A stretch of DNA of 64,000 bases from positions 15,347,365 to 15,411,364 of the forward strand of contig NC_087082.1 in NCBI RefSeq assembly GCF_026151205.1. The letters are read 5' to 3'. Of the stretch, positions 1 through 45,575 are shown piece after piece; position 1 is the stretch's first letter; each line of letters begins with the position of its first letter. Source of the stretch: Bolinopsis microptera (taxonomy: Eukaryota > Ctenophora > Tentaculata > Lobata > Bolinopsidae). Under the pieces are notes generated by a model. The model saw only the letters and a program-made list of their open reading frames with translations. It was not told the DNA's origin and ran no database searches. The position numbers were made by a program, and so were the translations under genes.

Positions 1-3000
1 AACTGCTACTGTCGACAGCAAAAGTGTAAGCGGTGTAATTTATATCCAACGAATCTCAATTAGTGTCACTCTGTCGCTCGATAACTTTCATCATCACTTA
101 TACTTCCATCATCTTTAGCATTGGCCCTTGATTGATCATATTCTGTGATCTGTTTCAGCAAAACTAATAAAATGTTTGAATTTTCTGATCTTAATCGGTT
201 TCAAATTTTATTCTGCAGGTCCAAACGCCATACGTTCGCAAGTTTTCAAACGGAGATAAGGTGGAAATAATACATAATGGGCAGTTGGAAATCTTATTAT
301 ACAGTAAAAATAGGAGTCCAGCTGTAAGATTACAGGCGGTCGATGCTAGCAGGTATGCAAATCGCAAAAGATCAAATACAGTGTTTAGTTAATTTAGTTA
401 ACAACTTAGTTATTAACATAAGTTGTGAGTTTTCTTCGAATTTGACGTTTAGTTTTAGTTTTTCAAAACTTTATTTGGGCCTGTTTCCATGGCCTGTTGG
501 AAAATTACGGGATAAGTTGATTTTACGGTGATTCCTATTTTGTTCAACTATCTTGTGAGGCATTTATCTGAAAACCTTACAAATTTGAAGAACATCTATA
601 AACTACTAATGATAAAATTCTAGTTACATTAACGCGAACATTTGGCTACACGGGTCGTGCGCTGGAATCACAGAAGGGCTCTGTGGTAACTGGAACGGTA
701 ACGCCGCAGACGATCTTATCAGAAATGATCCCAACTTCCACGGCGAAAAGTACAAAGAGTTTGACGAGCATTGTCAAGCACCTCCCCCACCTTACGATCC
801 TTGTAAAGCTATCGGACCGGATGCTAGGGCACAAGCTGAAGATATCTGCAACAGTCTTACAGGTTGCTTTTTATAATATTCATGATCATTTTACGTTTGA
901 TCATTCAGTTTTTTCATTTCATTTCAATTAGGTTCGCACTTTGCAATCGTCAGCTTTTGGTTTAATTTTGTTTTAAAATCTTCGCAGTCAAACTTGTGTA
1001 ATTTCAGTCGATGAAACGGCAGAAAAGCTTTTATTTAGAAATCTTCCAAAATGTCTCCTTCTTAATTTAATACAAAGCTCCACTTACAGAAAGTCCGTTT
1101 TCCGATTGCAATAACGTTGTTCCTGTTGGAGACACAAAGGAAGGTCTCTTCAACACTTGTATGACAGACGTATGCCAATGCTCACTTGATAAGGTAATAG
1201 GCGCTGAACTGAAGAAAATTAGAAAAATCATGATTTAAATCTCAATTGACCGCCTAAATTGTTAGTATACCATGGAACTGTGAATATGAAATGAAGTATT
1301 ATACCCGGTTTTCATTACTTCATTACAGACGTGTGCTTGCCCGCAATTTGACGCATACGCACAAAGATGTATAGAAAGCGGAGTAGATCTAAATGACTGG
1401 AGGGAGGCGATTTTATTTTGTCGTAAGTCGATTTTTAAATCAAGATAACCGTTATAACCATAAATAAACGCGAACACTGCAAATTTTGCCCCAAAATAAT
1501 AACCATTGTTGCTATTCTATTAAACGTCATTCTTAAACTAATTGTGCACTAGAGAAAATTACAAAATAAATTCTTCAGCATATGATTGCCCGGAGGGACA
1601 GTTGTATCGACCAAACGGCGCTGTTCCAGCTCCCACATGTTTAGAAAGGAGCCCAACTAAAACTGGGACCGTCAGAGGGTGCTTTTGTCCTGAGGGAAAC
1701 TTTTTACAAGATGGTAAATGTGTCCGGGCTGACGATTGTAAATGTCTTCATGAGGGTACTTTCTATAACGTAAGTCTGACGTGCGGTTCATAACGTTCCT
1801 TTTCTGACGAGTGTAAATGTCTTCATGAGGGTACTTTCTATAACGTAAGTCTGACGTGCGGTTCATAACGTTCCTTTTCTGACGATTGTAAATGTCTTCA
1901 TGAGGGTACTTTCTATAACGTAAGTCTGACGTGCGGTTCATAACGTTCCTTTTCTGACGATTGTAAATGTCTTCATGAGGGTACTTTCTATAACGTAAGT
2001 CTGACGTGCGGTTCATAACGTTCCTTTTCTGACGAGTGTAAATGTCTTCATGAGGGTACTTTCTATAACGTAAGTCTGACGTGCGGTTCATAACGTTCCT
2101 TTTCTGACGATTGTAAATGTCTTCATGAGGGTACTTTCTATAACGTAAGTCTGACGTGCGGTTCATAACGTTCCTTTTCTGACGATTGTAAATGTCTTCA
2201 TGAGGGTACTTTCTATAACGTAAGTCTGACGTGCGGTTCATAACGTTCCTTTTCTGACGAGTGTAAATGTATTCATGAGGGTACTTTCTATAACGTAAGT
2301 CTGACGTGCGGTTCATAACGTTCCTTTTCTGACGATTGTAAATGTCTTCATGAGGGTACTTTCTATAACGTAAGTCTGACGTGCGGTTCATAACGTTCCT
2401 TTTCTGACGATTGTAAATGTCTTCATGAGGGTACTTTCTATAACGTAAGTCTGACGTGCGGTTCATAACGTTCCTTTTCTGACGATTGTAAATGTCTTCA
2501 TGAGGGTACTTTCTATAACGTAAGTCTGACGTGCGGTTCATAACGTTCCTTTTCTGACGATTGTAAATGTCTTCATGAGGGTACTTTCTATAACGTAAGT
2601 CTGACGTGCGGTTCATAACGTTCCTTTTCTGACGATTGTAAATGTCTTCATGAGGGTACTTTCTATAACGTAAGTCTGACGTGCGGTTCATAACGTTCCT
2701 TTTCTGACGAGTGTAAATGTCTTCATGAGGGTACTTTCTATAACGTAAGTCTGACGTGCGGTTCATAACGTTCCTTTTCTGACGAGTGTAAATGTCTTCA
2801 TGAGGGTACTTTCTATAACGTAAGTCTGACGTGCGGTTCATAACGTTCCTTTTCTGACGATTGTAAATGTCTTCATGAGGGTACTTTCTATAACGTAAGT
2901 CTGACGTGCGGTTCATAACGTTCCTTTTCTGACGATTGTAAATGTCTTCATGAGGGTACTTTCTATAACGTAAGTCTGACGTGCGGTTCATAACGTTCCT

Positions 3001-6000
3001 TTTCTGACGATTGTAAATGTCTTCATGAGGGTACTTTCTATAACGTAAGTCTGACGTGCGGTTCATAACGTTCCTTTTCTGACGATTGTAAATGTCTTCA
3101 TGAGGGTACTTTCTATAACGTAAGTCTGACGTGCGGTTCATAACGTTCCTTTTCTGACGAGTGTAAATGTCTTCATGAGGGTACTTTCTATAACGTAAGT
3201 CTGACGTACGGTTCATAACGTTCCTTTTCTCAGAAATTTAAGTGTTTTTTATTTGAGAGAGGTGGATTTGAAGAAAACAATGCCCCCACACAAACAACTA
3301 CTTTCAAACAGAACGGGCACGAGATACGAAGCGAGGGAGAGTGCAAAGTTTGTACTTGCGAGGATTCTGGTGAGATGACATGTGCTGATATGACTTGTCC
3401 AGAGCTTCACTGTGAAGATGATGAGCTGATTTCCTACAGAGAGGGTGTTTGCTGTCCCTATTGTTTGTCTGATTGGGTTGAGGTATGATAATTTATTTGC
3501 TTTTTTATTGAGAACATTCGTTTCTTTGCTTTTTTATTTAGGAAATTTGTCATTCACCATTAACCTTAATTCGTTCTTTCATATATAACAAATTTTGTTT
3601 GCTGACCAGACAGTTCGGATTTCAGTCTCATTTTGTTTCAGGCCATGAACCCGTCTATCCGGATTAAGGAGGGTCAGTCTGTGACCCTGACTTGTGCTGT
3701 TCATGTAAAAGATGTCGGAATGAAGAGCATTGTTTGGTATAAAGATGGAGACAGGGTGTTTGATAGTTACAAACTCTCTATTAACAGGTATATTCTGCAC
3801 AAAATATACTGATAAAATGGTTTTATTTTACAAACGGACAATGGAAAATTTCCCATAATTTTTCAGTATCAGTTCACGGTTTTTCTCCTATTTTTACATA
3901 TTATCCCCAGACTCACGCTAAAAATAGAAGACGCAGGAGCGAAAGACCGGGGAACATACACTTGCCAGGCTACCAAGGGTGGGGTAGCAGCTACAGGCGA
4001 CTTTAGCGTCAGTGTACACATACCGGCTGTTTGTACTCACAAGGATGGAGCTAGTTTCTTACAAGGAGAAATATACAACCCAAACCAGGTTTATTCAGTA
4101 TTATAAACTTATAAACAGAGCAGACAAATTTTTATATTGTAAAGTATTCCACTACGAACCAGAGGCACGAAACAATCTCATCTAAACGTTTATATGGCAG
4201 TCACATAGAAACTGGTTCTACACGAGCATATTTACTAAAAAATGTTGGGTAATAGAAGAGGCCCAGTATATCATTGTCAAGGAATGGTATAAAGGTTTTA
4301 CTTAAAATACACTGCATTATCAATACATTATCAATACTTTCCCAGAACACACAATGTACATGTGATGCCCGAGGACGCCACTCTTGCTCATGCATCCTGG
4401 ACCACCCTGCCAGTATCCAATGTTCCTTCCCCACAGCCGGGGTCTGGTATGACGAACACTGCAATAAGACTTGTGTACCAGTTCCTGGCACTTGTACCAG
4501 CGGCAATGATCCACATTACAGAACTTTTGATGGGAAATATTATGACTTCCACGGAAAGTGCACTTATCAGGCGGCCAGCTGTGATGATTTTAAGGTGAAC
4601 AAATTAAGATTTTGATAATTTTTGAAAGTTCTAGATGTTGCAGGAATCAGCATTTTTGATGTATCTTAAAGAGTTTGCGTCTCAGGCAATTACAAATCTG
4701 TAACGGTTGTTATCTTTCAGGTTAAGTTGAAGAACAAAAATCTGGGAGGCAGTCCTACTTACACAGATAAGATGATTCTGGAGTTCAAAGGCCACTTATT
4801 TTCCGTCCACTCATCTGGTTACTCAGCACACGTTAATAATCGAAAGGTAATTTTCTATCATTTACAAAAGTTCTTTGGCTGATTTCCGATTTATTTATTA
4901 ATTATTTATATATAAATTGTGCATGCTTGAAATTTTTCTGGAGTCAGTGAGTCAAAGAATGTCTTCAGTAATAACCATTGGCAAATTCGCTCACCGCAGT
5001 ATTTCTATCCTCTTTTCAGGTTTCAGTCCCATATGACAAAAAGTTCGAAAATGGTGATCGTGTCGCTATCAGGAACAAGTAAATGTGGATAATTACAAAT
5101 AATTAATTATTCATGTATGATGAAGGAATTATTTAGTTGAAGGGGGCTGAATACTAGCAATGTTAATTCATGTCTATTCGAGCTTTCATCTAGAATTGAA
5201 ACAAATTCTTTATATTATGGAGCTGCAGGATTAACAACATGTCATTTCAGTGGTCAACTAGTAATCACGTTATATAGCCAAGGTAGAGACCCCTCTGCAG
5301 AATTAACAGCTCGATCCATGAGTGGCGGAAGGTATCAATGATACTTCGTTTATTTTCATTTTACACTCACTATTTATTTCCAATTTGACAAACAAGTAAC
5401 AATAAAATGTTCACTATAATGAAGCTGTAACTACTTTATTCACAGGTGGATAAACGTAGCAATAAAACTACATGGATCATGCGCCAGTGTCACTGAGGGT
5501 TTGTGCGGAGTTTGGAACGGTAATGTTGCTGACGATTTGTTTAAAGACTCTCCTAACGATAACGCAGAGAAGTTTAAAGATTATGACGAATCTTGTCCTC
5601 CTCCTCCGGCCCCCTATGACCCTTGTGATAATATCGGCCCTCTGAGAAAAGCTAAGGCGCTGGCGATCTGCCAAAAACTAACTGGTAGATAAAAATATAA
5701 ATATTATAAATAAATATTAAACATTAGGTCATTCAAATTAATTTAACACTGTTTTTCAAGGCTTATTTCCTTAAGATATCTTAACTTTCTCGTTAAGAAA
5801 TCATAAATTTTTCTTTGTACATTTTACAAGACCTAATGATATTTGAATTACCATCACTTCTCCCTCAGAGCCCCCTTTTTCGGCGTGCAACAACGTTGTG
5901 CCAGTGGGAGACACAAATGGCGGCTTTATAAACACTTGCATGACTGAGATCTGCCAGTGTCACTTAGATAAGGTAATAAAAAATCAAAATAATGTGCAAC

Positions 6001-17371: not shown

Positions 17372-17500
17372 GTTCTTGCTAATTGCCCACTCAAATATTT
17401 GGTAGTAACTTTGCTGAGGCAATCTTGGAGAATCAGGAATAGACCGAGGCCGCGATTTGTAATCGTGGAATTCGTTTGAGGTCTTATCAACCCTGGCGCG

Positions 17501-17935
17501 TGGGGACACGTTTTTGCTAGTAGTTTGCGACATTATTTTACGGGTATCGAATCTCGCGACTTCAACGAAGTCCTGGGGACACGTTTTCAATAATTGATAA
17601 TATTTTCAGCCCCTATCGTTTTAAGCATCGTTAGGGCTTTCCCAGAAACTAACTCTCATCATCCTAGGATAATCGTGTGTCGCACAGCACCTCTTTCAGT
17701 AACGAGAGTAGTCGCATGCAGTCCAGAATGACGTGTACGTTTCGGTCACCTGTGGAAAAAGGAAGTGAGATATCAAAAATCTGAGAAAAACCCGTTGGAT
17801 AAAAGCCTTTCAGGTAGGTGCTAGTCAAGATTTCATCTCTTTAGACCTTAAGATGGCTTCTAACACCTCGTCAAAAGTTTTTAAAAGTAAATTTTACTCG
17901 CGACTATCAAAAAACAACAAAAACGTGTCCCCAAT
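17501..17935. repeat. Inner 16-bp inverted repeat in the left arm
   Basis: TGGGGACACGTTTTTG at 17501-17516 faces its perfect reverse complement at 17920-17935, and a third copy (tggggacacgttttc) lies at 17573. The same set is mirrored in the right arm. It may mark an older element nested inside the arm; no target duplication was recognised. Confidence 0.6.
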
Positions 17936-18358
17936 TTGCTTTTTTGAGCGCGCCCAGATCAGCGCACCTAGCTGATCTAGCTACTATGAACAGGCACATA
18001 AAAATATCAGTGAATATAAGTGATTTCGGTTATTGGAGTAATTTCATCAGAGCAGTCACATTTTTGATGGTGATTAATACTTTAATAACATTCCACAACA
18101 AGGCAACCATTAACTATGTAGTGTGTACCGTGTGCAGTGTGAAGTATAATATAGAGTTGGCATGAAGTTAACAGTTTACTTATCACGAAGTTTAATTAGA
18201 AGATAAGGAAAATATTGTATTGTTATCTGTCAAAGGAATTTAATGTATTCTAACAACTTGTTCTTATAATAACTAATCGATGAACCACATACAGGGTCGG
18301 TGTGAGTGTAAGAATTTGTGTGAGAAGATATATAGAGGAGCAAAATTCAACATCACTG

Positions 18359-18475
18359 GATACGGCCATACTCGGTTGAATACACCCCATCTCGTTCGAT
18401 CTGGGAAGTTAAGCAACTGCAGGCCGGGTTAGTACTTGGATGGGTGACCGCCTGGGAATTCCCGGTGCCGTATCC
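18359..18475 (+). rRNA. 5S ribosomal RNA gene (left arm)
   Basis: 117 nt whose ends pair (gatacggc and gccgtatc), forming helix I. The internal promoter is recognisable: AAGTTAAGCAACTGC at the box A position and GGTTAGTACTTGGATGGG at the box C position, with GACCGCCTGGGAA following as in animal 5S. An atatata stretch lies at -31 to -25, and a TTTT terminator follows immediately. Transcribed by RNA polymerase III if active. Whether it is a working gene or a mobilised copy is not known. Confidence 0.92.
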
Positions 18476-18733
18476 TTTTGTTATATTTTCGAAGAATTGC
18501 TTTACTGAACAGAAGAATTGTGTATGGCTTTTACAGAATTGCAGTGATTATTAAGAATATCATTTTATCCTAAGCAATATAGTCTATGTTCAAACGGAAG
18601 GAAATATTTCCAAATGTCAGAATAACATTGCTTAGAATAGTATAGCTACTAAGTTTTGTCTGAAAAGGGCTTTTTTGTTTCATTCTAAGATCTATCTTAA
18701 ACATTCTGCTTAAAATTAACTAGAATGTATTTT

Positions 18734-19568
18734 TAAGTTAACTTGAAGAGTACTACAAGGTATCCTGAAGTTAACTTGAAGAGTACTACAAGGTATCCTG
18801 AAGTTAACTTGGAGAGTACTGCAAAGTATCCTGTAGATAACTCGAAGAGTACTGCAAGGTATCCTGAAGTTAACTCGAAGAGTACTACAAGGTATCCTGA
18901 AGTTAACTTGGAGAGTACTGCAAAGTATCCTGTAGATAACTCGAAGAGTACTGCAAGGGTATCCTGGAGTTACCTTGAAAAGTACTACAAGGTATCCTGA
19001 AGTTAACTTGAAGAGTACTACAAGGTATCCTGAAGTTAACTTGAAGAGTACTACAAGGTATCCTGAAGTTAACTTGGAGAGTACTGCAAAGTATCCTGTA
19101 GATAACTCGAAGAGTACTGCAAGGTATCCTGAAGTTAACTCGAAGAGTACTACAAGGTATCCTGAAGTTAACTTGGAGAGTACTGCAAAGTATCCTGTAG
19201 ATAACTCGAAGAGTACTGCAAGGTATCCTCAAGTTAACTTGAAGAGTACTGCAAGGTATCCTCAAGTTAACATGAAGAGTACTGCAAGGTATCCTGGAGT
19301 TACCTTGAAGAATACTACAAGACATTCTGAAGTTAACTTGAATAGTACTACAAGGTATCCTGAAGTTAACTTGAAGAGTACTACAAGATATCCTGAAGTT
19401 AACTTGAAGAGTACTGCAAGGTATCCTGTAGATAACTCGAAGAGTACTGCAAGGTATCCTGAAGTTAACTTGAAGAGTACTGCAAGGTTTCCTGAAGTTA
19501 ACTTGAAGAGTACTACAAGGTATCCTGGAGTTACCTTGAAGAGTACTACAAAGTACAAGGTATCCTAA
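18734..19568 (+). repeat. 33-bp minisatellite (left arm, about 25 copies)
   Basis: The unit is gttaacttgaagagtactac followed by aaggtatcctgaa, with variants (acttggagagtactgcaaag, gataactcgaagagtactgc) arranged in repeated blocks. The 33-bp period keeps several frames open (a repeating KSTTRYPEVNL); these are not taken as genes. Confidence 0.95.
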
Positions 19569-19599
19569 AATTAACTAGAATGTATTCTTAAGTTAACTT

Positions 19600-19840
19600 G
19601 CAAGTTATACTGCAAATCCGAGAGGCGATAAAATTTCAAATATATCGGGACCGATATAATTGGAAGACGACAAATATCTAACTTTAGGTCAACTTCATGC
19701 TTTCTGTCAGTTAACTTCAGGATCAGATCAGCTTTATCTTAATTTAATCCAAGTTTGCGTGCAGGCTACCACAACAACAACAACATAGAGGTTGTTACAG
19801 GATTAATTAAGTATATAATAGAGGATAATTTGAAGGTAAC
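19600..19840. other. Unique centre (loop) of the foldback unit
   Basis: Non-repeated AT-rich sequence between the arms, with a short caacaacaacaac tract near 19768. It encodes nothing recognisable. Confidence 0.7.
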
Positions 19841-19849
19841 TTGTAGTTC

Positions 19850-20770
19850 TCTTTAAAGTTAACTTCAGGATACCTTGTAGTACTCTTCAAGTTAACTTCA
19901 GGATACCTTGTAGTACTCTTCAAGTTAACTTCAGGATACCTTGTAGTACTGTTCAAGTTAACTTCAGGATACCTTGTAGTACTCTTCAAGTTAATTTCAA
20001 GATACCTTGCAGTTATACTCTTCAAGTTAACTTCAGGATACATTGCATTGTAGTACTTTTTAAGTTAACTTCAGGATACCTTGTATCACTTTTTAAGTTA
20101 ACTCCAGGATACCTTGTAGTACTCTTCAAGTTAACTTCAGGATACCTTGCAGTACTCTTCAAGTTAACTTCAGGATATCTTGTAGTACTCTTCACGTTAA
20201 CTTCAGGAAACCTTGTAGTACTCTTCGAGATAACTCCAGGATACCTTGTAGTACTCTTCAAGTTAACTTCAGGATACCTTGTAGTACTTTTTAAGTTAAC
20301 TTCACGATATCTTGTAGTACACTTCAAGTTAACTTCAGGATTGCTTGCAGTACTCTTCGAGTTATCTACAGGATACCTTGCAGAACTCTTCAAGTTAATT
20401 TCAAGATACCTTGCACTTTGCAGTTATACTCTTCAAGTTAACTTCAGGATACATTGCATTGTAGTGCTTTTTAAGTTAACTTCAGGATACCTTGTATCAC
20501 TTTTTAAGTTAACTCCAGGATACCTAATTGTAGTACTCTTCAAGTTAATTTCAAGATACCTTGCAGCTTGCAGTTATACTCTTCAAGTTAACTTCAGGAT
20601 ACATTGCATTGTTATAGTACTCTTCAAGTTAACTTCAGGATACCTTGCAGTACTCTTCAAGTTAACTTCAGGATACCTTGTAGTACTCTTCAAGTTAACT
20701 TCAGGATACCTTGTAGTACTTTTCAAGGTAACTCCAGGATACCTTGCAGTACTCTTCAAGTTAACTTAAA
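19850..20770 (-). repeat. 33-bp minisatellite (right arm, about 28 copies)
   Basis: Same 33-bp unit as the left arm but inverted (gttaacttcaggataccttg on the plus strand). Variant order differs from the left array, and several units carry insertions (ttgcattg, gcttgcagttat near 20400-20610), so the two arrays have evolved separately since the inversion arose. Confidence 0.95.
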
Positions 20771-21026
20771 AATACATTCTAGTTAATTTTAAGCAGAATG
20801 TTTAAGATAGATCTTAGAATGAAACAAAAAAGCCCTTTTCAGACAAAACTTAGTAGCTATACTATTCTAAGCAATGTTATTCTGACATTTGGAAATATTT
20901 CCTTCCGTTTGAACATAGACTATATTGCTTAGGATAAAATGATATTCTTAATAATCACTGCAATTCTGTAAAAGCCATACACAATTCTTCTGTTCAGTAA
21001 AGCAATTCTTCGAAAATATAACAAAA

Positions 21027-21143
21027 GGATACGGCACCGGGAATTCCCAGGCGGTCACCCATCCAAGTACTAACCCGGCCTGCAGTTGCTTAACTTCCCA
21101 GATCGAACGAGATGGGGTGTATTCAACCGAGTATGGCCGTATC
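21027..21143 (-). rRNA. 5S ribosomal RNA gene (right arm)
   Basis: Reverse-complement copy of the 5S gene at 18359, apparently identical over its length, with the same upstream TATA-like stretch and TTTT terminator. The two 5S genes face each other across the 33-bp arrays and would be transcribed convergently. Confidence 0.92.
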
Positions 21144-22024
21144 CAGTGATGTTGAATTTTGCTCCTCTATATCTTCTCACACAAATTCTTACACTCACAC
21201 CGACCCTGTATGTGGTTCATCGATTAATTATTATAAGAACAAGTTGTTAGAATACATTAAATTCCTTTGACAGATAACAATACAATATTTTCCTTATCTT
21301 CTAATTAAACTTCGTGATAAGTAAACTGTTAACTTCATGCCAACTCTATATTATACTTCACACTGCACACGGTACACACTACATAGTTAATGGTTGCCTT
21401 GTTGTGGAATGTTATTAAAGTATTAATCACCATAAAAAATGTGACTGCTCTGATGAAATTACTCCAATAACCGAAATCACTTATATTCACTGATATTTTT
21501 GTGTGCCTGTTCAGTGTTCATAGTAGCTAGATCAGCTAGGTGCGCTGATCTGGGCGCGCTCAAAAAAGCAAATTGGGGACACGTTTTTGTTGTTTTTTGA
21601 TAGTCGCGAGTAAAATTTACTTTTAAAAACTTTTGACGAGGTGTTAGAAGCCATCTTAAGGTCTAAAGAGATGAAATCTTGACTAGCACCTACCTGAAAG
21701 GCTTTTATCCAACGGGTTTTTCTCAGATTTTTGATATCTCACTTCCTTTTTCCACAGGTGACCGAAACGTACACGTCATTCTGGACTGCATGCGACTACT
21801 CTCGTTACTGAAAGAGGTGCTGTGCGACACACGATTATCCTAGGATGATGAGAGTTAGTTTCTGGGAAAGCCCTAACGATGCTTAAAACGATAGGGGCTG
21901 AAAATATTATCAATTATTGAAAACGTGTCCCCAGGACTTCGTTGAAGTCGCGAGATTCGATAACCGTAAAATAATGTCGCAAACTACTAGCAAAAACGTG
22001 TCCCCACGCGCCAGGGTTGCTTAT

Positions 22025-22569
22025 ACTTCAAAGTAATGTTAGGGCATTTTTTGTTATTTGTGCTCCTTTAGTATTTTCCCGATATAAAGTTTTACAGGAT
22101 ATATCTTTAGATAGATTTCTAGGAAAACATAAATAAGAGACAATATCTTTTGATCCAAAAATAGCATCCCCAATGGATGCTGAAATTACTCCAATTCCCT
22201 TGAGAAAAAGATAATTAACTGGAGATTTAAATCTTGCAATTTTTTCTAAGGACTGGTGCCAACATTTTTGGGTTTAGATTTCAAATTCTTAAGAAAAAAC
22301 GAAGAAATGTCATCAAATTCAGGTGAGATTACATCATAGCCTAGTAAGGTTTCCGGCCGCATGTTTAGCTAAACGAATCACTTTTAGCAGTGATAATTTA
22401 ATTCACCAAATCGGGCCCCCGTTTTACAATTGACGTAATTTAATTTATCGTTGACACATTTTATGGGCTCGTTATCTTGTTTTCGAAAGTTTTAAACTAT
22501 GAATTGACTATAAGCCAGCATAAAAAATACTTCGATATTCTTACCACAAACTGGAAACTGTGACAAAAA
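22025..22569. other. Intergenic sequence, no gene seen
   Basis: AT-rich, no coding or RNA feature recognised. Confidence 0.5.
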
Positions 22570-35515: not shown

Positions 35516-38500
35516 GATTGGATGAAATTTTTTCCCACAAACCAATTAGTCAGTTAATTGATGATGGTATGAAAACAAAATGGACAGCTGGAAATCGAAA
35601 TCTCGAAAAATTGGAAAATCATACTGTCCCATACTCTGTCCCATTTTCAGTTTTTGAAGCTGAAATTTCCAGAGCCGAAATTTTACAGTTTTGACCGAAT
35701 TTCTGACCTGCAACCAATTAGTCAGTCAACTGTAAATGGCAAATGACACAATTGAGGTGCTGGAAGTTTGATTTGGGTCGGAGGAAGCTCACAGCAGAAA
35801 TCTTAACAAAACGAAATGTTGTATTTTCAAAACTTTGTCCCATTTTCAGATATAAAAATTTCTGAACACACATTTGACAGAAAGGATGAAATTTTTGCCC
35901 ACAAACCAATTAGTCAGCTAATTGATGATGGTATGAAAACAACATAGACAGCTGGAAATCAAAATCTCGAAAAATTAGAAAATCATACTGTCCCATACTC
36001 TGTCCCATTTTCAGTTTTTGAAGCTGAAATTTCCAGGGCCGAAATTTTACAGTTTTGACCGAATTTCTGACCTGCAACCAATTAGTCAGTCAACTGTGGA
36101 TGGCAAATGACACAATTGAGGTGCTGGAAGTTTGATTTGGGTCGGATGAAGCTCACAGCAGAAATCTTAACAAAACGAAATGTTGTATTTTCAAAACTTT
36201 GTCCCATTTTCAGATATGAAAATTTCTGAACACACATTTGCTAGATTGGATGAAATTTTTGCCCACAAACCAATTAGTCAGTTAATTGATGATGATATGA
36301 AAACAAAATGGACAGCTGGAAATCAAAATCTCGAAAAATTGGACAAATCATACTGTCCCATACTCTGTCCCATTTTCAGTTTTTGAAGCTGAAATTTCCA
36401 GGGCCGAAATTTTACAGTTTTGACCGAATTTCTGACCTGCAACCAATTAGTCAGTCAACTGTGGATGGCAAATGACACAATTGAGGTGCTGGAAGTTTGA
36501 TTTTGGTCGGATGAAGCTCACAGCAGAAATCTTAACAAAACGAAATGTTGTATTTTCAAAACTCTGTCCCATTTTCAGATATGAAAATTTCTGAACACAC
36601 ATTTGCTAGATTGGATGAAATTTTTGCCCACAAACCAATTAGTCAGTTAATTGATGATGGTATGAAAACAACATAGACAGCTGGAAATCAAAATCTCGAA
36701 AAATTAGAAAATCATACTGTCCCATACTCTGTCCCATTTTCAGTTTTTGAAGCTGAAATTTCCAGGGCCGAAATTTTACAGTTTTGACCGAATTTCTGAC
36801 CTGCAACCAATTAGTCAGTCAACTGTGGATGGCAAATGACACAATTGAGGTGCTGGAAGTTTGATTTTGGTCGGATGAAGCTCACAGCAGAAATCTTAAC
36901 AAAACGAAATGTTGTATTTTCAAAACTTTGTCCCATTTTCAGATATGAAAATTTCTGAACACACATTTGACAGATTGGATGAAATTTTTGCCCACAAACC
37001 AATTAGTCAGTTAATTGATGATGGTATGAAAACAACATAGACAGCTGGAAATCAAAATCTCGAAAAATTAGAAAATCATACTGTCCCATACTCTGTCCCA
37101 TTTTCAGTTTTTGAAGCTGAAATTTCCAGGGCCGAAATTTTACAGTTTTGACCGAATTTCTGACTTGCAACCAATTAGTCAGTCAACTGTGGATGGCAAA
37201 TGACACAATTGAGGTGCTGGAAGTTTGATTTGGGTCGGATGAAGCTCACAGCAGAAATCTTAACAAAACGAAATGTTGTATTTTCAAAACTTTGTCCCAT
37301 TTTCAGATATGAAAATTTCTGAACACACATTTGCTAGATTGGATGAAATTTTTGCCCACAAACCAATTAGTCAGTTAATTGATGATGATATGAAAACAAA
37401 ATGGACAGCTGGAAATCGAAATCTCGAAAAATTGGACAAATCATACTGTCCCATACTCTGTCCCATTTTCAGTTTTTGAAGCTGAAATTTCCAGGGCCGA
37501 AATTTTACAGTTTTGACCGAATTTCTGACCTGCAACCAATTAGTCAGTCAACTGTGGATGGCAAATGACACAATTGAGGTGCTGGAAGTTTGATTTTGGT
37601 CGGATGAAGCTCACAGCAGAAATCTTAACAAAACGAAATGTTGTATTTTCAAAACTTTGTCCCATTTTCAGATATGAAAATTTCTGAACACACATTTGCT
37701 AGATTGGATGAAATTTTTGCCCACAAACCAATTAGTCAGTTAATTGATGATGATATGAAAACAAAATGGACAGCTGGAAATCAAAATCTCGAAAAAAATT
37801 GGAAAATCATACTGTCCCATACTCTGTCCCATTTTCAGTTTTTGAAGGTGAAATTTCCAGGGCCGAAATTTTACAGTTTTGACCGAATTTCTGACCTGCA
37901 ACCAATTAGTCAGTCAACTTTGGATGGCAAATGACACAATTGGGGTGCTGGAAATTTGATTTGGGTCGGAGGAAGCTCAGAGCAGAAATCTTAACAAAAC
38001 GAAATGTTGTATTTTCAAAACTTTGTCCCATTTTCAGATATGAAAATTTCTGAACACACATTTGACAGATTGGATGAAATTTTTGCCCACAAACCAACTA
38101 GTCAGTTAACTGATGATGGTATGAACCCAAAATGGACAGCTGGAAATCAAAATCTCGAAAAAATTGGAAAATCATACTGTCCCATACTCTGTCCCATTTT
38201 CAGTTTTTGAAGGTGAAATTTCCAGGGCCGAAATTTTACAGTTTTGACCGAATTTCTGACCTGCAACCAATTAGACAGTCAACTATGGATGGCAAATGAC
38301 ACAATTGGGGTGCTGGAAGTTTGATTTGTGTTGGAGGAAGTTTGCTCCAGAAATCTTAACAAAACGAAATGTTGTATTTTCAAAACTTTGTCCCATTTTC
38401 AGATATGAAAATTTCTGAACACACATTTGACAGATTGGATGAAATTTTTGCCCACAAACCAATTAGTCAGTTAATTGATGATGGTATGAAAACAACATAG

Positions 38501-41500
38501 ACAGCTGGAAATCAAAATCTCGAAAAATTAGAAAATCATACTGTCCCATACTCTGTCCCATTTTCAGTTTTTGAAGCTGAAATTTCCAGGGCCGAAATTT
38601 TACAGTTTTGACCGAATTTCTGACCTGCAACCAATTAGTCAGTCAACTGTGGATGGCAAATGACACAATTGAGGTGCTGGAAGTTTGATTTTGGTCGGAT
38701 GAAGCTCACAGCAGAAATCTTAACAAAACGAAATGTTGTATTTTCAAAACTTTGTCCCATTTTCAGATATGAAAATTTCTGAACACATATTTAACAGATT
38801 GGATGAAATTTTTACCCACAAACCAATTAGTCAGTTAATTGATGATGATATGAACCCAAAATGGACAGCAAGAAGTCAAAATATCGAAAAAAATTGGAAA
38901 ATCATACTGTCCCATACTCTGTCCCATTTTCAGTTTTTGAAGGTGAAATTTCCAGGGCCGAAATTTTACAGTTTTGACCGAATTTCTGACCTGCAACCAA
39001 TTAGTCAGTCAACTATGGATGGCAAATGACACAATTGGGGTGCTGGAAGTTTGATTTGTGTTGGAGGAAGTTGCTCAGCAGAAATCTTAACAAAACAAAA
39101 TGTTGTATTTTCAAAACTTTGTCCCATTTTCAGATATGAAAATTTCTGAACACATATTTAACAGATTGGATGAAATTTTTACCCACAAACCAATTAGTCA
39201 GTTAATTGATGATGATAAGAACCCAAAATGGACAGCAAGAAGTCAAAATATCGAAAAAAATTGGAAAATCATACTGTCCCATACTCTGTCCCATTTTCAG
39301 TTTTTGAAGGTGAAATTTCCAGGGCCGAAATTTTACAGTTTTGACCGAATTTCTGACCTGCAACCAATTAGTCAGTCAACTATGGATGGCAAATGACACA
39401 ATTGGGGTGCTGGAAGTTTGATTTGTGTTGGAAGAAGTTTGCTCCAGAAATCTTAACAAAACGAAATGTTGTATTTTCAAAACTTTGTCCCATTTTCAGA
39501 TATGAAAATTTCTGAACACACATTTGACAGATTGGATGAAATTTTTGCCCACAAACCAATTAGTCAGTTAATTAATGATGGTATGTAACCAAAATGGACA
39601 GCTGGAAGTCAAAATTTCGGAAAAAAATTGGGAAATCATACTGTCCCATACTCTGTCCCATTTTCAGTATTTGAAGGTAAAATTTCCAGGGCCGAAATTT
39701 TACAGTTTTGACCGAATTTCTGACCTGCAACCAATAAGTCAGTCAACTATGGATGGAAAATGACACGATTGGAGTGCTGGAAGTTTGATTTGGGTCGGAG
39801 GAAGCTCACAACAGAAATCGTAACAAAACGAAATGTTGTATTTTCAAAACTTTGTCCCATTTTCAGATATGAAAATTTCTGAACACATATTTAACAGATT
39901 GGATGAAATTTTTACCCACAAACCAATTAGTCAGTTAATTGATGATGATATGAACCCAAAATGGACAGCAAGAAGTCAAAATATCGAAAAAAATTGGAAA
40001 ATCATACTGTCCCATACTCTGTCCCATTTTCAGTTTTTGAAGGTGAAATTTCCAGGGCCGAAATTTTACAGTTTTGACCGAATTTCTGACCTGCAACCAA
40101 TTAGTCAGTCAACTATGGATGGCAAATGACACAATTGGGGTGCTGGAAGTTTGATTTGTGTTGGAGGAAGTTTGCTCCAGAAATCTTAACAAAACGAAAT
40201 GTTGTATTTTCAAAACTTTGTCCCATTTTCAGATATGAAAATTTCTGAACACATATTTAACAGATTGGATGAAATTTTTACCCACAAACCAATTAGTCAG
40301 TTAATTGATGATGATAAGAACCCAAAATGGACAGCAAGAAGTCAAAATATCGAAAAAAATTGGAAAATCATACTGTCCCATACTCTGTCCCATTTTCAGT
40401 TTTTGAAGGTGAAATTTCCAGGGCCGAAATTTTACAGTTTTGACCGAATTTCTGACCTGCAACCAATTAGTCAGTCAACTATGGATGGCAAATGACACAA
40501 TTGGGGTGCTGGAAGTTTGATTTGTGTTGGAAGAAGTTTGCTCCAGAAATCTTAACAAAACGAAATGTTGTATTTTCAAAACTTTGTCCCATTTTCAGAT
40601 ATGAAAATTTCTGAACACACATTTGACAGATTGGATGAAATTTTTGCCCACAAACCAATTAGTCAGTTATTTAATGATGGTATGTAACCAAAATGGACAG
40701 CTGGAAGTCAAAATTTCGGAAAAAAATTGGGAAATCATACTGTCCCATACTCTGTCCCATTTTCAGTATTTGAAGGTAAAATTTCCAGGGCCGAAATTTT
40801 ACAGTTTTGACCGAATTTCTGACCTGCAACCAATAAGTCAGTCAACTATGGATGGAAAATGACACGATTGGAGTGCTGGAAGTTTGATTTGGGTCGGAGG
40901 AAGCTCACAGCAGAAATCGTAACAAAACGAAATGTTGTATTTTCAAAACTTTGTCCCATTTTCAGATATGAAAATTTCTGAACACATATTTGACAGATTG
41001 GATGAAAATTTTACCCACAAACCATTTAATCAGTTAATTGATGATGATATGAACCCAAAATGGACAGCAAGAAGTCAAAATCTCGAAAAAAATTGGAAAA
41101 TCATACTGTCCCATACTCTGTCCCATTTTCAGTTTTTGAAGGTGAAATTTCCAGGGCCGAAATTTTACAGTTTTGACCGAATATCTGACCTGCAACCAAT
41201 TAGTCAGTCAACTATGGATGGCAAATGACTCAATTGGGGTGCTGGAAGTTTGATTTGGGTCGGAGGAAGCTCACAGCAGAAATCTTAATAAAACGAAATG
41301 TTGTATTTTCAAAACTCTGTCCCATTTTCAGATATGAAAATTTCTGAACACACATTTGACAGATTGGATGAAATTTTTGCCCACAAACCAATTAGTCAGT
41401 TAATTAATGATGATATGAACCCAAAATGGACAGCTGGAAGTCAAAATCTCGAAAAAAATTGGAAAATCATACTGTCCCATACTCTGTCCCATTTTCAGTT

Positions 41501-44500
41501 TTTGAAGGTGAAATTTCCAGGGCCGAAATTTTACAGTTTTGACCGAATTTCTGACCTGCAACCAATTAGTCAGTCAACTATGGATGGAAAATGACACGAT
41601 TGGAGTGCTGGAAGTTTGATTTGGGTCGGAGGAAGCTCACAGCAGAAATCGTAACAAAACGAAATGTTGTATTTTCAAAACTTTGTCCCATTTTCAGATA
41701 TGAAAATTTCTGAACACATATTTAACAGATTGGATGAAATTTTTACCCACAAACCAATTAGTCAGTTAATTGATGATGATATGAAAACAAAATGGACAGC
41801 TGGAAATCAAAATCTCGAAAAAAATTGGAAAATCATACTGTCCCATACTCTGTCCCATTTTCAGTTTTTGAAGGTGAAATTTCCAGGGCCGAAATTTTAC
41901 AGTTTTGACCGAATTTCTGACCTGCAACCAATTAGTCAGTCAACTTTGGATGGCAAATGACACAATTGGGGTGCTGGAAATTTGATTTGGGTCGGAGGAA
42001 GCTCAGAGCAGAAATCTTAACAAAACGAAATGTTGTATTTTCAAAACTCTGTCCCATTTTCAGATATGAAAATTTCTAAACACACATTTGACAGATTGGA
42101 TGAAATTTTTGCCCACAAACCAACTAGTCAGTTAACTGATGATGGTATGAACCCAAAATGGACAGCTGGAAATCAAAATCTCGAAAAAAATTGGAAAATC
42201 ATACTGTCCCATACTCTGTCCCATTTTCAGTTTTTGAAGGTGAAATTTCCAGGGCCGAAATTTTACAGTTTTGACCGAATTTCTGACCTGCAACCAATTA
42301 GACAGTCAACTATGGATGGCAAATGACACAATTGGGGTGCTGGAAGTTTGATTTGTGTTGGAGGAAGTTTGCTCCAGAAATCTTAACAAAACGAAATGTT
42401 GTATTTTCAAAACTTTGTCCCATTTTCAGATATGAAAATTTCTGAACACACATTTGACAGATTGGATGAAATTTTTGCCAACAAACCAATTAGTCAGTTA
42501 ATTAATGATGGTATGTAACCAAAATGGACAGCTAGAAGTCAAAATTTCGGAAAAAAATTGGAAAATCATACTGTCCCATACTCTGTCCCATTTTCAGTAT
42601 TTGAAGGTAAAATTTCCAGGGCCGAAATTTTACAGTTTTGACCGAATTTCTGACCTGCAACCAATAAGTCAGTCAACTATGGATGGAAAATGACACGATT
42701 GGAGTGCTGGAAGTTTGATTTGGGTCGGAGGAAGCTCACAACAGAAATCGTAACAAAACGAAATGTTGTATTTTCAAAACTTTGTCCCATTTTCAGATAT
42801 AAAAATTTCTGAACACATATTTAACAGATTGGATGAAATTTTTACCCACAAACCAATTAGTCAGTTAATTGATGATGATATGAACCCAAAATGGACAGCA
42901 AGAAGTCAAAATATCGAAAAAAATTGGAAAATCATACTGTCCCATACTCTGTCCCATTTTCAGTTTTTGAAGGTGAAATTTCCAGGGCCGAAATTTTACA
43001 GTTTTGACCGAATTTCTGACCTGCAACCAATTAGTCAGTCAACTATGGATGGCAAATGACTCAATTGGGGTGCTGGAAGTTTGATTTGTGTTGGAGGAAG
43101 TTTGCTCTAGAAATCTTAACAAAACGAAACGTTGTATTTTCAAAACTTTGTCCCATTTTCAGATATGAAAATTTCTGAACACATATTTAACAGATTGGAT
43201 GAAATTTTTACCCACAAACCAATTAGTCAGTTAATTGATGATGATAAGAACCCAAAATGGACAGCAAGAAGTCAAAATATCGAAAAAAATTGGAAAATCA
43301 TACTGTCCCATACTCTGTCCCATTTTCAGTTTTTGAAGGTGAAATTTCCAGGGCCGAAATTTTACAGTTTTGACCGAATTTCTGACCTGCAACCAATTAG
43401 TCAGTCAACTATGGATGGCAAATGACACAATTGGGGTGCTGGAAGTTTGATTTGTGTTGGAAGAAGTTTGCTCCAGAAATCTTAACAAAACGAAATGTTG
43501 TATTTTCAAAACTTTGTCCCATTTTCAGATATGAAAATTTCTGAACACACATTTGACAGATTGGATGAAATTTTTGCCCACAAACCAATTAGTCAGTTAA
43601 TTAATGATGGTATGTAACCAAAATGGACAGCTGGAAGTCAAAATTTCGGAAAAAAATTGGGAAATCATACTGTCCCATACTCTGTCCCATTTTCAGTATT
43701 TGAAGGTAAAATTTCCAGGGCCGAAATTTTACAGTTTTGACCGAATTTCTGACCTGCAACCAATAAGTCAGTCAACTATGGATGGAAAATGACACGATTG
43801 GAGTGCTGGAAGTTTGATTTGGGTCGGAGGAAGCTCACAACAGAAATCGTAACAAAACGAAATGTTGTATTTTCAAAACTTTGTCCCATTTTCAGATATG
43901 AAAATTTCTGAACACATATTTAACAGATTGGATGAAATTTTTACCCACAAACCAATTAGTCAGTTAATTGATGATGATATGAACCCAAAATGGACAGCAA
44001 GAAGTCAAAATATCGAAAAAAATTGGAAAATCATACTGTCCCATACTCTGTCCCATTTTCAGTTTTTGAAGGTGAAATTTCCAGGGCCGAAATTTTACAG
44101 TTTTGACCGAATTTCTGACCTGCAACCAATTAGTCAGTCAACTATGGATGGCAAATGACACAATTGGGGTGCTGGAAGTTTGATTTGTGTTGGAGGAAGT
44201 TTGCTCCAGAAATCTTAACAAAACGAAATGTTGTATTTTCAAAACTTTGTCCCATTTTCAGATATGAAAATTTCTGAACACACATTTGACAGATTGGATG
44301 AAATTTTTGCCCACAAACCAATTAGTCAGTTAATTAATGATGGTATGTAACCAAAATGGACAGCTGGAAGTCAAAATTTCGGAAAAAAATTGGAAAATCA
44401 TACTGTCCCATACTCTGTCCCATTTTCAGTATTTGAAGGTAAAATTTCCAGGGCCGAAATTTTACAGTTTTGACCGAATTTCTGACCTGCAACCAATTAG

Positions 44501-45368
44501 TCAGTCAACTATGGATGGAAAATGACACGATTGGAGTGCTGGAAGTTTGATTTGGGTCGGAGGAAGCTCACAACAGAAATCGTAACAAAACGAAATGTTG
44601 TATTTTCAAAACTTTGTCCCATTTTCAGATATGAAAATTTCTGAACACATATTTAACAGATTGGATGAAATTTTTACCCACAAACCAATTAGTCAGTTAA
44701 TTGATGATGATATGAACCCAAAATGGACAGAAAGAAGTCAAAATATCGAAAAAAATTGGAAAATCATACTGTCCCATACTCTGTCCCATTTTCAGTTTTT
44801 GAAGGTGAAATTTCCAGGGCCGAAATTTTACAGTTTTGACCGAATTTCTGACCTGCAACCAATTAGTCAGTCAACTATGGATGGCAAATGACACAATTGG
44901 GGTGCTGGAAGTTTGATTTGTGTTGGAGGAAGTTTGCTCCAGAAATCTTAACAAAACGAAATGTTGTATTTTCAAAACTTTGTCCCATTTTCAGATATGA
45001 AAATTTCTGAACACACATTTGACAGATTGGATGAAATTTTTGCCCACGAACCAATTAGTCAGTTAATTAATGATGGTATGTAACCAAAATGGACAGCTGG
45101 AAGTCAAAATTTCGGAAAAAAATTGGAAAATCATACTGTCCCATACTCTGTCCCATTTTCAGTATTTGAAGGTAAAATTTCCAGGGCCGAAATTTTACAG
45201 TTTTGACCGAATTTCTGACCTGCAACTAATTAGTCAGTCAACTATGGATGGAAAATGACACGATTAGAGTGCTGGAAGTTTGATTTGGGTCGGAGGAAGC
45301 TCATAACAGAAATCGTAACAAAACGAAATGTTGTATTTTCAAAACTCTGTCCCGTATCAGATATGAAA

Positions 45369-45575
45369 AATCTTTGTTTTAATGTCACAGGAGGACTAGA
45401 TCAGATTGTAAATTGTTTAAATGCTTACCTTTCCGTTTTGACTGTTTAAAGATTATTCGCATTTAACAAGTTTGTTCTCAATAAATGAATATTGAATAGT
45501 AGTTATTAGATTTTAATAATTCAGTGTCAAGGGGTTAATGTTATTCAGTGTCAAGGGGTTACTGTTATTACGCAG
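45369..45575. other. Short spacer after the satellite
   Basis: Contains a two-copy 25-bp direct repeat (core attcagtgtcaaggggtta, about 45519-45568). It would be the 3' flank of paralogue A. Confidence 0.6.

Follow-up and report, generated by a model that had tools for sequence, protein, structure and literature searches.

Foldback-type transposable elements have very long inverted repeats and are flanked by short target duplications. The subject of this work is an element of this type, E1, found in the ctenophore Bolinopsis microptera within a 64,000-nucleotide stretch of DNA (hereafter the window, C11:15347365-15411364 of the 264.65-Mb host genome). Very probably, E1 is a DNA transposon of the non-autonomous kind whose terminal inverted repeats are very long, and the 5S ribosomal RNA (rRNA) genes it carries are most likely its cargo. 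Among the described systems, Galileo and Tetris of Drosophila and Tm1 of the root-knot nematodes (PMC3169594, PMC4079207, PMC3573991) come close to E1, since they too have very long and partly internally repetitive inverted repeats and short target duplications. E1 differs from all three in having a complete 5S gene in both arms and in its 4-5-bp AT-rich duplications.

A second group of relevant systems combines 5S rRNA with mobility in other ways. Cassandra and Ajax are, like E1, mobile elements holding 5S-derived sequence; unlike E1, they are long terminal repeat (LTR) retrotransposons of the TRIM class (terminal-repeat retrotransposons in miniature) with direct repeats, and Ajax, which makes 5-bp duplications, has only the promoter part of the 5S gene and was judged unlikely to encode 5S RNA. 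SINE3 shares a 5S-derived promoter for RNA polymerase III (Pol III) with E1 and differs from it in being a non-LTR retroposon with 5S-derived sequence (for all three, the covered portion of PMC10886601). The Dada elements, also DNA transposons, have a link to multicopy genes for small RNAs: they insert into these genes, and the parts of the report covered make no mention of gene carriage (PMC3706591). In Yarrowia, the covered part of another report describes dispersed 5S genes, one of them with an LTR inserted at it (PMC5014426). Among the matches listed in a search of the open-access literature, with Repbase and most subscription papers outside its range, none was a DNA transposon that holds complete 5S genes; the same literature had 5S parts in retroelements (Cassandra, Ajax) and work on short interspersed elements (SINEs) that names 5S rRNA.

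In the window, E1 covers positions 17488-22019 (4,532 bp). It opens with CAACCCTGG at 17488 and closes with CCAGGGTTG at 22019, and CTTAT stands on either side of it. Its parts, in window positions, are listed here.

17483-17487, no strand: target-site duplication CTTAT, left, from the reading of the element ends; the related empty site has one, slightly different, target copy.
17488-18310, plus strand: left terminal inverted repeat proper, which stops at ...CGGTGTGAGTGTA; arm positions 1-446 and 714-823 are common to the 5S-less relatives L033-L035.
17501, with a variant at 17574 and an inverted copy at 17918: subterminal motif TGGGGACACGTTTTTG in the left repeat, from the repeat search.
18330-18357, plus strand: apparent upstream promoter region of the 5S gene and first part of the module that E1 and E2 have in common; from arm position 843 onward the arm is homologous to E2.
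18358-18476, plus strand: left-arm 5S rRNA gene with a T-run after it; its sequence is that of the tandem-array 5S genes read.
18735-19555, plus strand: left 33-bp minisatellite, 24.8 units by tandem repeat search.
19612-19860, minus strand: centre, matching distal E2 and including the E2-type CTCTCGGATTTGC; 212 of 254 columns (83%) agree with L058 3653-3891.
19840-20767, minus strand: right 33-bp minisatellite, 26.8 units by tandem repeat search.
21026-21144, minus strand: 5S rRNA gene of the right arm, by Rfam; identical to the tandem-array 5S genes read.
21195-22019, minus strand: right terminal inverted repeat proper; its inner limit is approximate, as the mirror of the left.
22020-22024, no strand: target-site duplication CTTAT, right, from the reading of the element ends.

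A preliminary description of this DNA had proposed a foldback unit with convergent 5S genes bounded by a 5-bp direct repeat, and the ends, the CTTAT on both sides, the Rfam matches and the inverted arms all bear this out. The two 5S genes it saw are indeed full-length, each scoring 109.7 bits against Rfam RF00001 (gathering score 38), and the 33-bp minisatellite it assigned to each arm is present on both sides. Its near-identical 2.1-kb arms need to be shortened. The near-identity holds for the outer ~1.4 kb, where the arms are 97-99% complementary (17470-17992 with 21515-22037 and 17987-18335 with 21165-21513, both 99%; 18319-18890 with 20612-21183, 97%); it does not hold for the inner ~0.7 kb, which in both arms consists of the minisatellite, with ungapped inverted matches only ~84-90% alike and arrays of unequal length around the centre. 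As in the foldback class, long inverted repeats make up most of the element and internal tandem repeats are present in addition.

This architecture bears directly on whether E1 might be a retroelement. SINE3 elements are one-sided and begin, at the 5' end, with a head derived from 5S, and 5-bp duplications do occur in LTR elements. A 5S-headed retroposon like SINE3, or a 5S-containing LTR element of the Cassandra or Ajax type, would account for a carried 5S gene with its Pol III promoter and for 5-bp duplications such as those reported for Ajax (PMC10886601, part covered). However, the terminal repeats of E1 are inverted, not direct, and its 5S genes are internal and complete with both flanks, and we regard a retroelement origin as having next to no probability. 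We rejected SINE3 because the window element is two-ended, with inverted repeats and no 5S at its 5' end, so the contrast with single-ended SINE3 elements drawn earlier stands; the Cassandra and Ajax TRIMs were rejected because the terminal repeats of the window element are inverted and there are no direct LTRs holding 5S. The repeat search returned no terminal direct repeats, and no search was aimed at a primer-binding site, a polypurine tract or a 3' tail of the type of long interspersed elements (LINEs).

The case for mobility comes from the other copies in the genome. The 29-base E1 end occurs at 24 genomic places at up to three mismatches and the reversed control pattern at none, so the window ends are not a chance resemblance; a wider end pattern found 73 places, again against none for the reversed control, and these counts, like all those from genome pattern searches given here, are lower bounds. 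Fifty-six of the 73 ends form 28 inverted pairs at a spacing of 2.5-10.4 kb, and the other 17 are without a listed partner. Inverted pairs of the CACCCCCC type number 19 in total, with flanks read for 10 plus 4 (L032-L035) and five pairs unread. Among the 24 two-ended copies whose flanks were read, the target duplication is 5 bp long in 17 (CTTAT in the window, GAATA in L018, ATATT in L019, AATTA in L025, TTATA in L022/L023), 4 bp in five (L028 and four further copies) and not scorable in two; all 22 scored duplications are AT-rich, with at least three of four or four of five bases. The unscorable copies, retained in the 24, are L027, whose left terminus has been replaced, and L026, where no duplication can be scored because the flanks are themselves inverted, a TATA match being trivial. 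One-ended copies (L021, L024, L029, L030, L031 and L036) were excluded from these counts. As an observation in its own right, L026 (C1:14974018-14983078) is an E1-like 8-kb copy in which the inversion of the flanks runs 83 bases past both ends.

Empty sites were present for both E1 copies tested. Joining the two flanks of the window copy gives a sequence with one other match, C11:15057295-15057682, in one piece and at 85% over bases 12-400; when aligned, this relative (C11:15057240-15057700) has a single, slightly different copy of the target. For the 5S-carrying copy L019 there were 312 candidates; the 40 that were scored all cross the junction of the joined flanks, the best of them 100% identical; the insertion host is a LINE-like repeat, which by eye resembles a LINE reverse-transcriptase frame. 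The flanks of E1 vary from copy to copy. The preliminary description had named further copies with short duplications and sites lacking the unit as what a mobile unit would leave behind, and both are found; extended common flanks, which it took as a sign of segmental duplication, are not what the copies have. One copy on a 22-kb unplaced contig (C130) and two copies 30 kb apart on C8 would fit segmental duplication, or a palindrome of the assembly, in place of transposition. Against this stand the exact ends, the empty sites, and the differing flanks and duplications at many sites. Since flanks that differ between copies are not explained by segmental duplication, we rejected it, and a duplication or assembly palindrome is highly improbable overall. 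The inverted repeats at the exact element ends, the short target duplications and the empty sites are those of a DNA transposon. Together with the near-identity of the 5S-carrying copies, the AT-rich duplications of 4-5 bp and the two empty sites support the mobile identity of E1, and the idea of a mobile unit holding a captured 5S gene is further supported by the identity of that gene to array copies.

The 5S genes occur in both arms of eight two-ended E1 copies: the window copy, L018, L019, L020, L022/L023 (one element), L025, L027 and L028. The right-arm gene of L028 is partial, with 75 of 119 bases matched by BLAST and a score below the Rfam threshold; the Rfam scan took 20 loci with L018 and L025 outside it, and the 5S genes of these two copies were identified by BLAST. 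E1-type ends without 5S were seen in L017 and L032-L035. The 305-bp centre of the window element (19556-19860) is found in the seven other 5S-carrying copies at 89-100%, which suggests that the 5S-carrying composite arose once. Over the 264 bases further upstream of the gene, 14 other arms compared have only 0-3 differences from the window left arm, and the 5S-carrying copies are so alike as to show a recent spread. In the copy L022/L023, a Penelope-like element seems to be nested (L022 2284-3981 and L023 500-1642, both minus strand); its GIY-YIG domain was recognized by Pfam in L023, and its reverse transcriptase in L022, without a Pfam match, was judged by eye.

How these genes relate to the rest of the 5S complement can be seen from the 31 units in which the 5S match runs the full length of the gene. 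Sixteen of them have one identical sequence: six in E1 (both arms of the window copy and of L019, L018+ and L020-), two in E2 (L049 and L051), six in the tandem arrays and two dispersed. The comparison with the bulk cluster that had been proposed therefore finds the window genes identical to the tandem-array 5S genes read. Other element genes carry variants, such as C40T in L025 and G108A in L027. The upstream regions of 10 non-element 5S genes (near-duplicates, namely further units of L059 and L060 as well as L061 and L071, and the partial match L069 being omitted) have 26 positions common to at least seven of the 10. In the 40 bases upstream, E1 keeps 17 of these 26 positions, a number matched by two of 20,000 shuffles, and E2 keeps 19, matched by one of 20,000. 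Because the conserved positions are kept beyond what shuffles give, the captured unit seems to include the promoter. The T-run terminator noted earlier is present after the element 5S genes and kept in nearly all units read, with the exception of L028, which has TATG against TTTG elsewhere. The element genes look transcribable by Pol III. In the predicted fold of the gene RNA the terminal stem is closed, with a z-score of -2.5 and 5 of 200 shuffles scoring equally well; this is what a gene identical to array copies should show.

It was also proposed that the convergent 5S units might produce double-stranded RNA, which would feed small-RNA silencing of the element. What speaks for it is that convergent Pol III units lie in a long inverted repeat. 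However, both genes would give 5S RNA of the same sense, and each stops at its own T-run, ~2.5 kb from the other; a duplex would require read-through over two minisatellites. Read-through of such length makes the idea weak, and we hold it to be improbable.

The same module of 5S gene, minisatellite and centre is found, once per copy, in a second inverted-repeat family unrelated to E1, which we call E2. Its copies start with CACGGCTGTTC and stop with GAACAGCCGTG, ends unrelated to those of E1, and sixteen left and fourteen right ends were found in the genome. The duplications of E2 are likely 4 bp long: in three of six two-ended copies read they are ACTG, AACG and, next to an eroded end, AGCC, and in the other three CGATCGAT and GCGCGC match over more than four bases in a repetitive context and GACC/GACT agree at three of four. 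One two-ended copy, C7:10370499-10372269, is without a 5S match. Another observation concerns C6:3965072-3981385, where two E2 5S copies lie 16 kb apart, one inverted relative to the other, and share their mismatches in both the 5S and the end patterns; this pair is perhaps a larger palindrome.

Two junctions suggest how the module may have come into E1. In the E2 copy L058, a single 5S gene and a single minisatellite are accompanied by a centre of the E1 kind, and a stretch with CTCTCGG motifs comes after. The match of the E1 centre to L058 ends just within this stretch, at CTCTCGGATTTGC, from which we infer a transfer from E2 to E1, with E2 probably the donor. On the side of E1, the 5S-less relative L033 shares the arm as far as ...CGGTGTGAGTGTA and then diverges, ~20 bases before the start of the module. 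The route might have had four steps. First, the inverted-repeat transposon E2 would have captured a 5S gene of the host together with the promoter upstream of it. The module of 5S, minisatellite and centre would then have moved from E2 to an E1 arm, at its inner end, and been copied to the other arm through template switching or gene conversion, which left two convergent 5S genes. Finally, the composite would have spread by transposition, E1 being moved by a transposase acting in trans. The route taken as a whole, from host 5S gene to spread, seems to us about equally balanced between being right and being wrong.

Several points weigh against the account of E1 as a transposon that received its 5S genes from E2. 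A transposase was found for neither E1 nor E2: ten open reading frames were searched against Pfam, one of them taken from the L030 stretch and the other nine from E1 copies or the sequence flanking these, and what they returned were pieces that look nested, the recognizable ones in the long copies being a GIY-YIG domain, a reverse transcriptase and a hAT dimerisation piece. No autonomous copy was found among the E1 copies examined, and the ten frames against Pfam did not yield a superfamily assignment. The direction from E2 to E1 is read from a single motif of E2 type that lies in the E1 centre. Duplications of the ATATA type (L017, L020, L032, and the L099/L100 copy with seven matching bases) stand in TA-rich sequence, and each by itself is weak evidence; the five 4-bp cases mean that the duplication length of E1 is not strictly 5, and the empty site of the window copy is only an 85% relative. 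A stretch at C10:16088900 also has a frame, LINE-like by eye, adjoining an E1-like end. With these points taken into account, we still think a non-autonomous DNA transposon by far the best description of the window unit.

Another question is whether the host makes use of the element-borne genes. When the genome was scanned with a 48-base 5S pattern, allowing up to three mismatches, 65 places were found. Fifteen of them are in E1, 10 have an E2 left end within 570 bases, 25 belong to the tandem arrays of C5 and C13 (11 + 8 + 4 + 2) and 15 are dispersed. The elements thereby carry 25 of the 65 places, or 27 with two probable E2 cases among the dispersed ones, C12:5159993 (L054, from its flanks and centre) and C9:10251892 (from a 95% match only). 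The pattern misses the right-arm gene of L027, which has a 1-base deletion, and the element share would drop if the assembly collapsed arrays. Among the dispersed genes, L062-L068, L070 and L071 are single; their flanks otherwise differ (L064 and L071 are alike), and upstream they have in common a block conserved around AAATATA and AAATTTCA.

If E1 and E2 disperse working 5S genes, these would add to the 5S RNA pool of the host. This is suggested by the six full-length E1 genes and two E2 genes identical to array 5S, by upstream blocks kept beyond chance and T-runs kept in nearly all units, and by the element share of 5S places. The E2 genes are slightly less variable than their flanks, a lean that is not significant (4 of 119 gene against 16 of 330 flank columns in five copies, p = 0.61; 6 of 119 against 29 of 330 with L054, p = 0.23), and selection on the E2 gene may be present but weak. 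In E1, where selection was sought, the gene is not better conserved than its flanks. Compared with the window, it is worse conserved in L022 (7 of 119 gene against 6 of 517 flank positions, p = 0.004) and L023 (6 of 119 against 7 of 516, p = 0.02), and in L028 the difference is not significant (4 of 119 against 8 of 517, p = 0.25); these p values are not independent, because some changes are common to all three. The two arms of L022/L023 also differ from each other at 5 of 119 gene and 1 of 517 flank positions (p = 0.001). In this older copy the 5S genes have changed more than their flanks. On balance we find host use of the element-borne genes conceivable and rather doubtful. We are equally tentative about the broader proposal that two unrelated families of DNA transposons serve as vehicles for working 5S genes, hold a large share of the 5S loci, and make transposition a partial driver of 5S dosage and dispersal.

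The window has two further repeat arrays apart from E1. At 1729-3230, there are 20 tandem units of 75 bp, 99% matching, with a 521-codon open frame on the minus strand across the array. At 35516-45369, there are ~27 tandem units of 366 bp, 94% matching, and the adjoining frames resemble, by eye, a LINE reverse transcriptase. Proteins of the host genome agree with a ctenophore, probably a lobate one: of two ionotropic glutamate receptor frames compared with solved structures, L088 matches ML032222a of Mnemiopsis leidyi (4yki) best, at 1.3e-75, ahead of 4zdm, likewise a ctenophore protein, at 1.7e-40 and a kainate receptor at 1.1e-32, and L087 has ML032222a first too, though hardly ahead of kainate receptors (4e-36 against 1.6e-34).

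To our knowledge, the question of how dispersed 5S genes scatter has mostly been left open. Complete, promoter-bearing 5S units inside DNA transposons, two copies of which have empty sites, make transposition a directly testable route for such dispersal. It is worth pointing out that the 5S gene is among the most conserved genes of the cell, and here a transposon appears to have taken it, in pairs, to new genomic places. One module in two transposon families with unrelated ends is also a clear case of cargo exchange. If E1 and E2 do carry working 5S genes, the dosage and dispersal of rRNA genes in this ctenophore would be driven in part by transposition.

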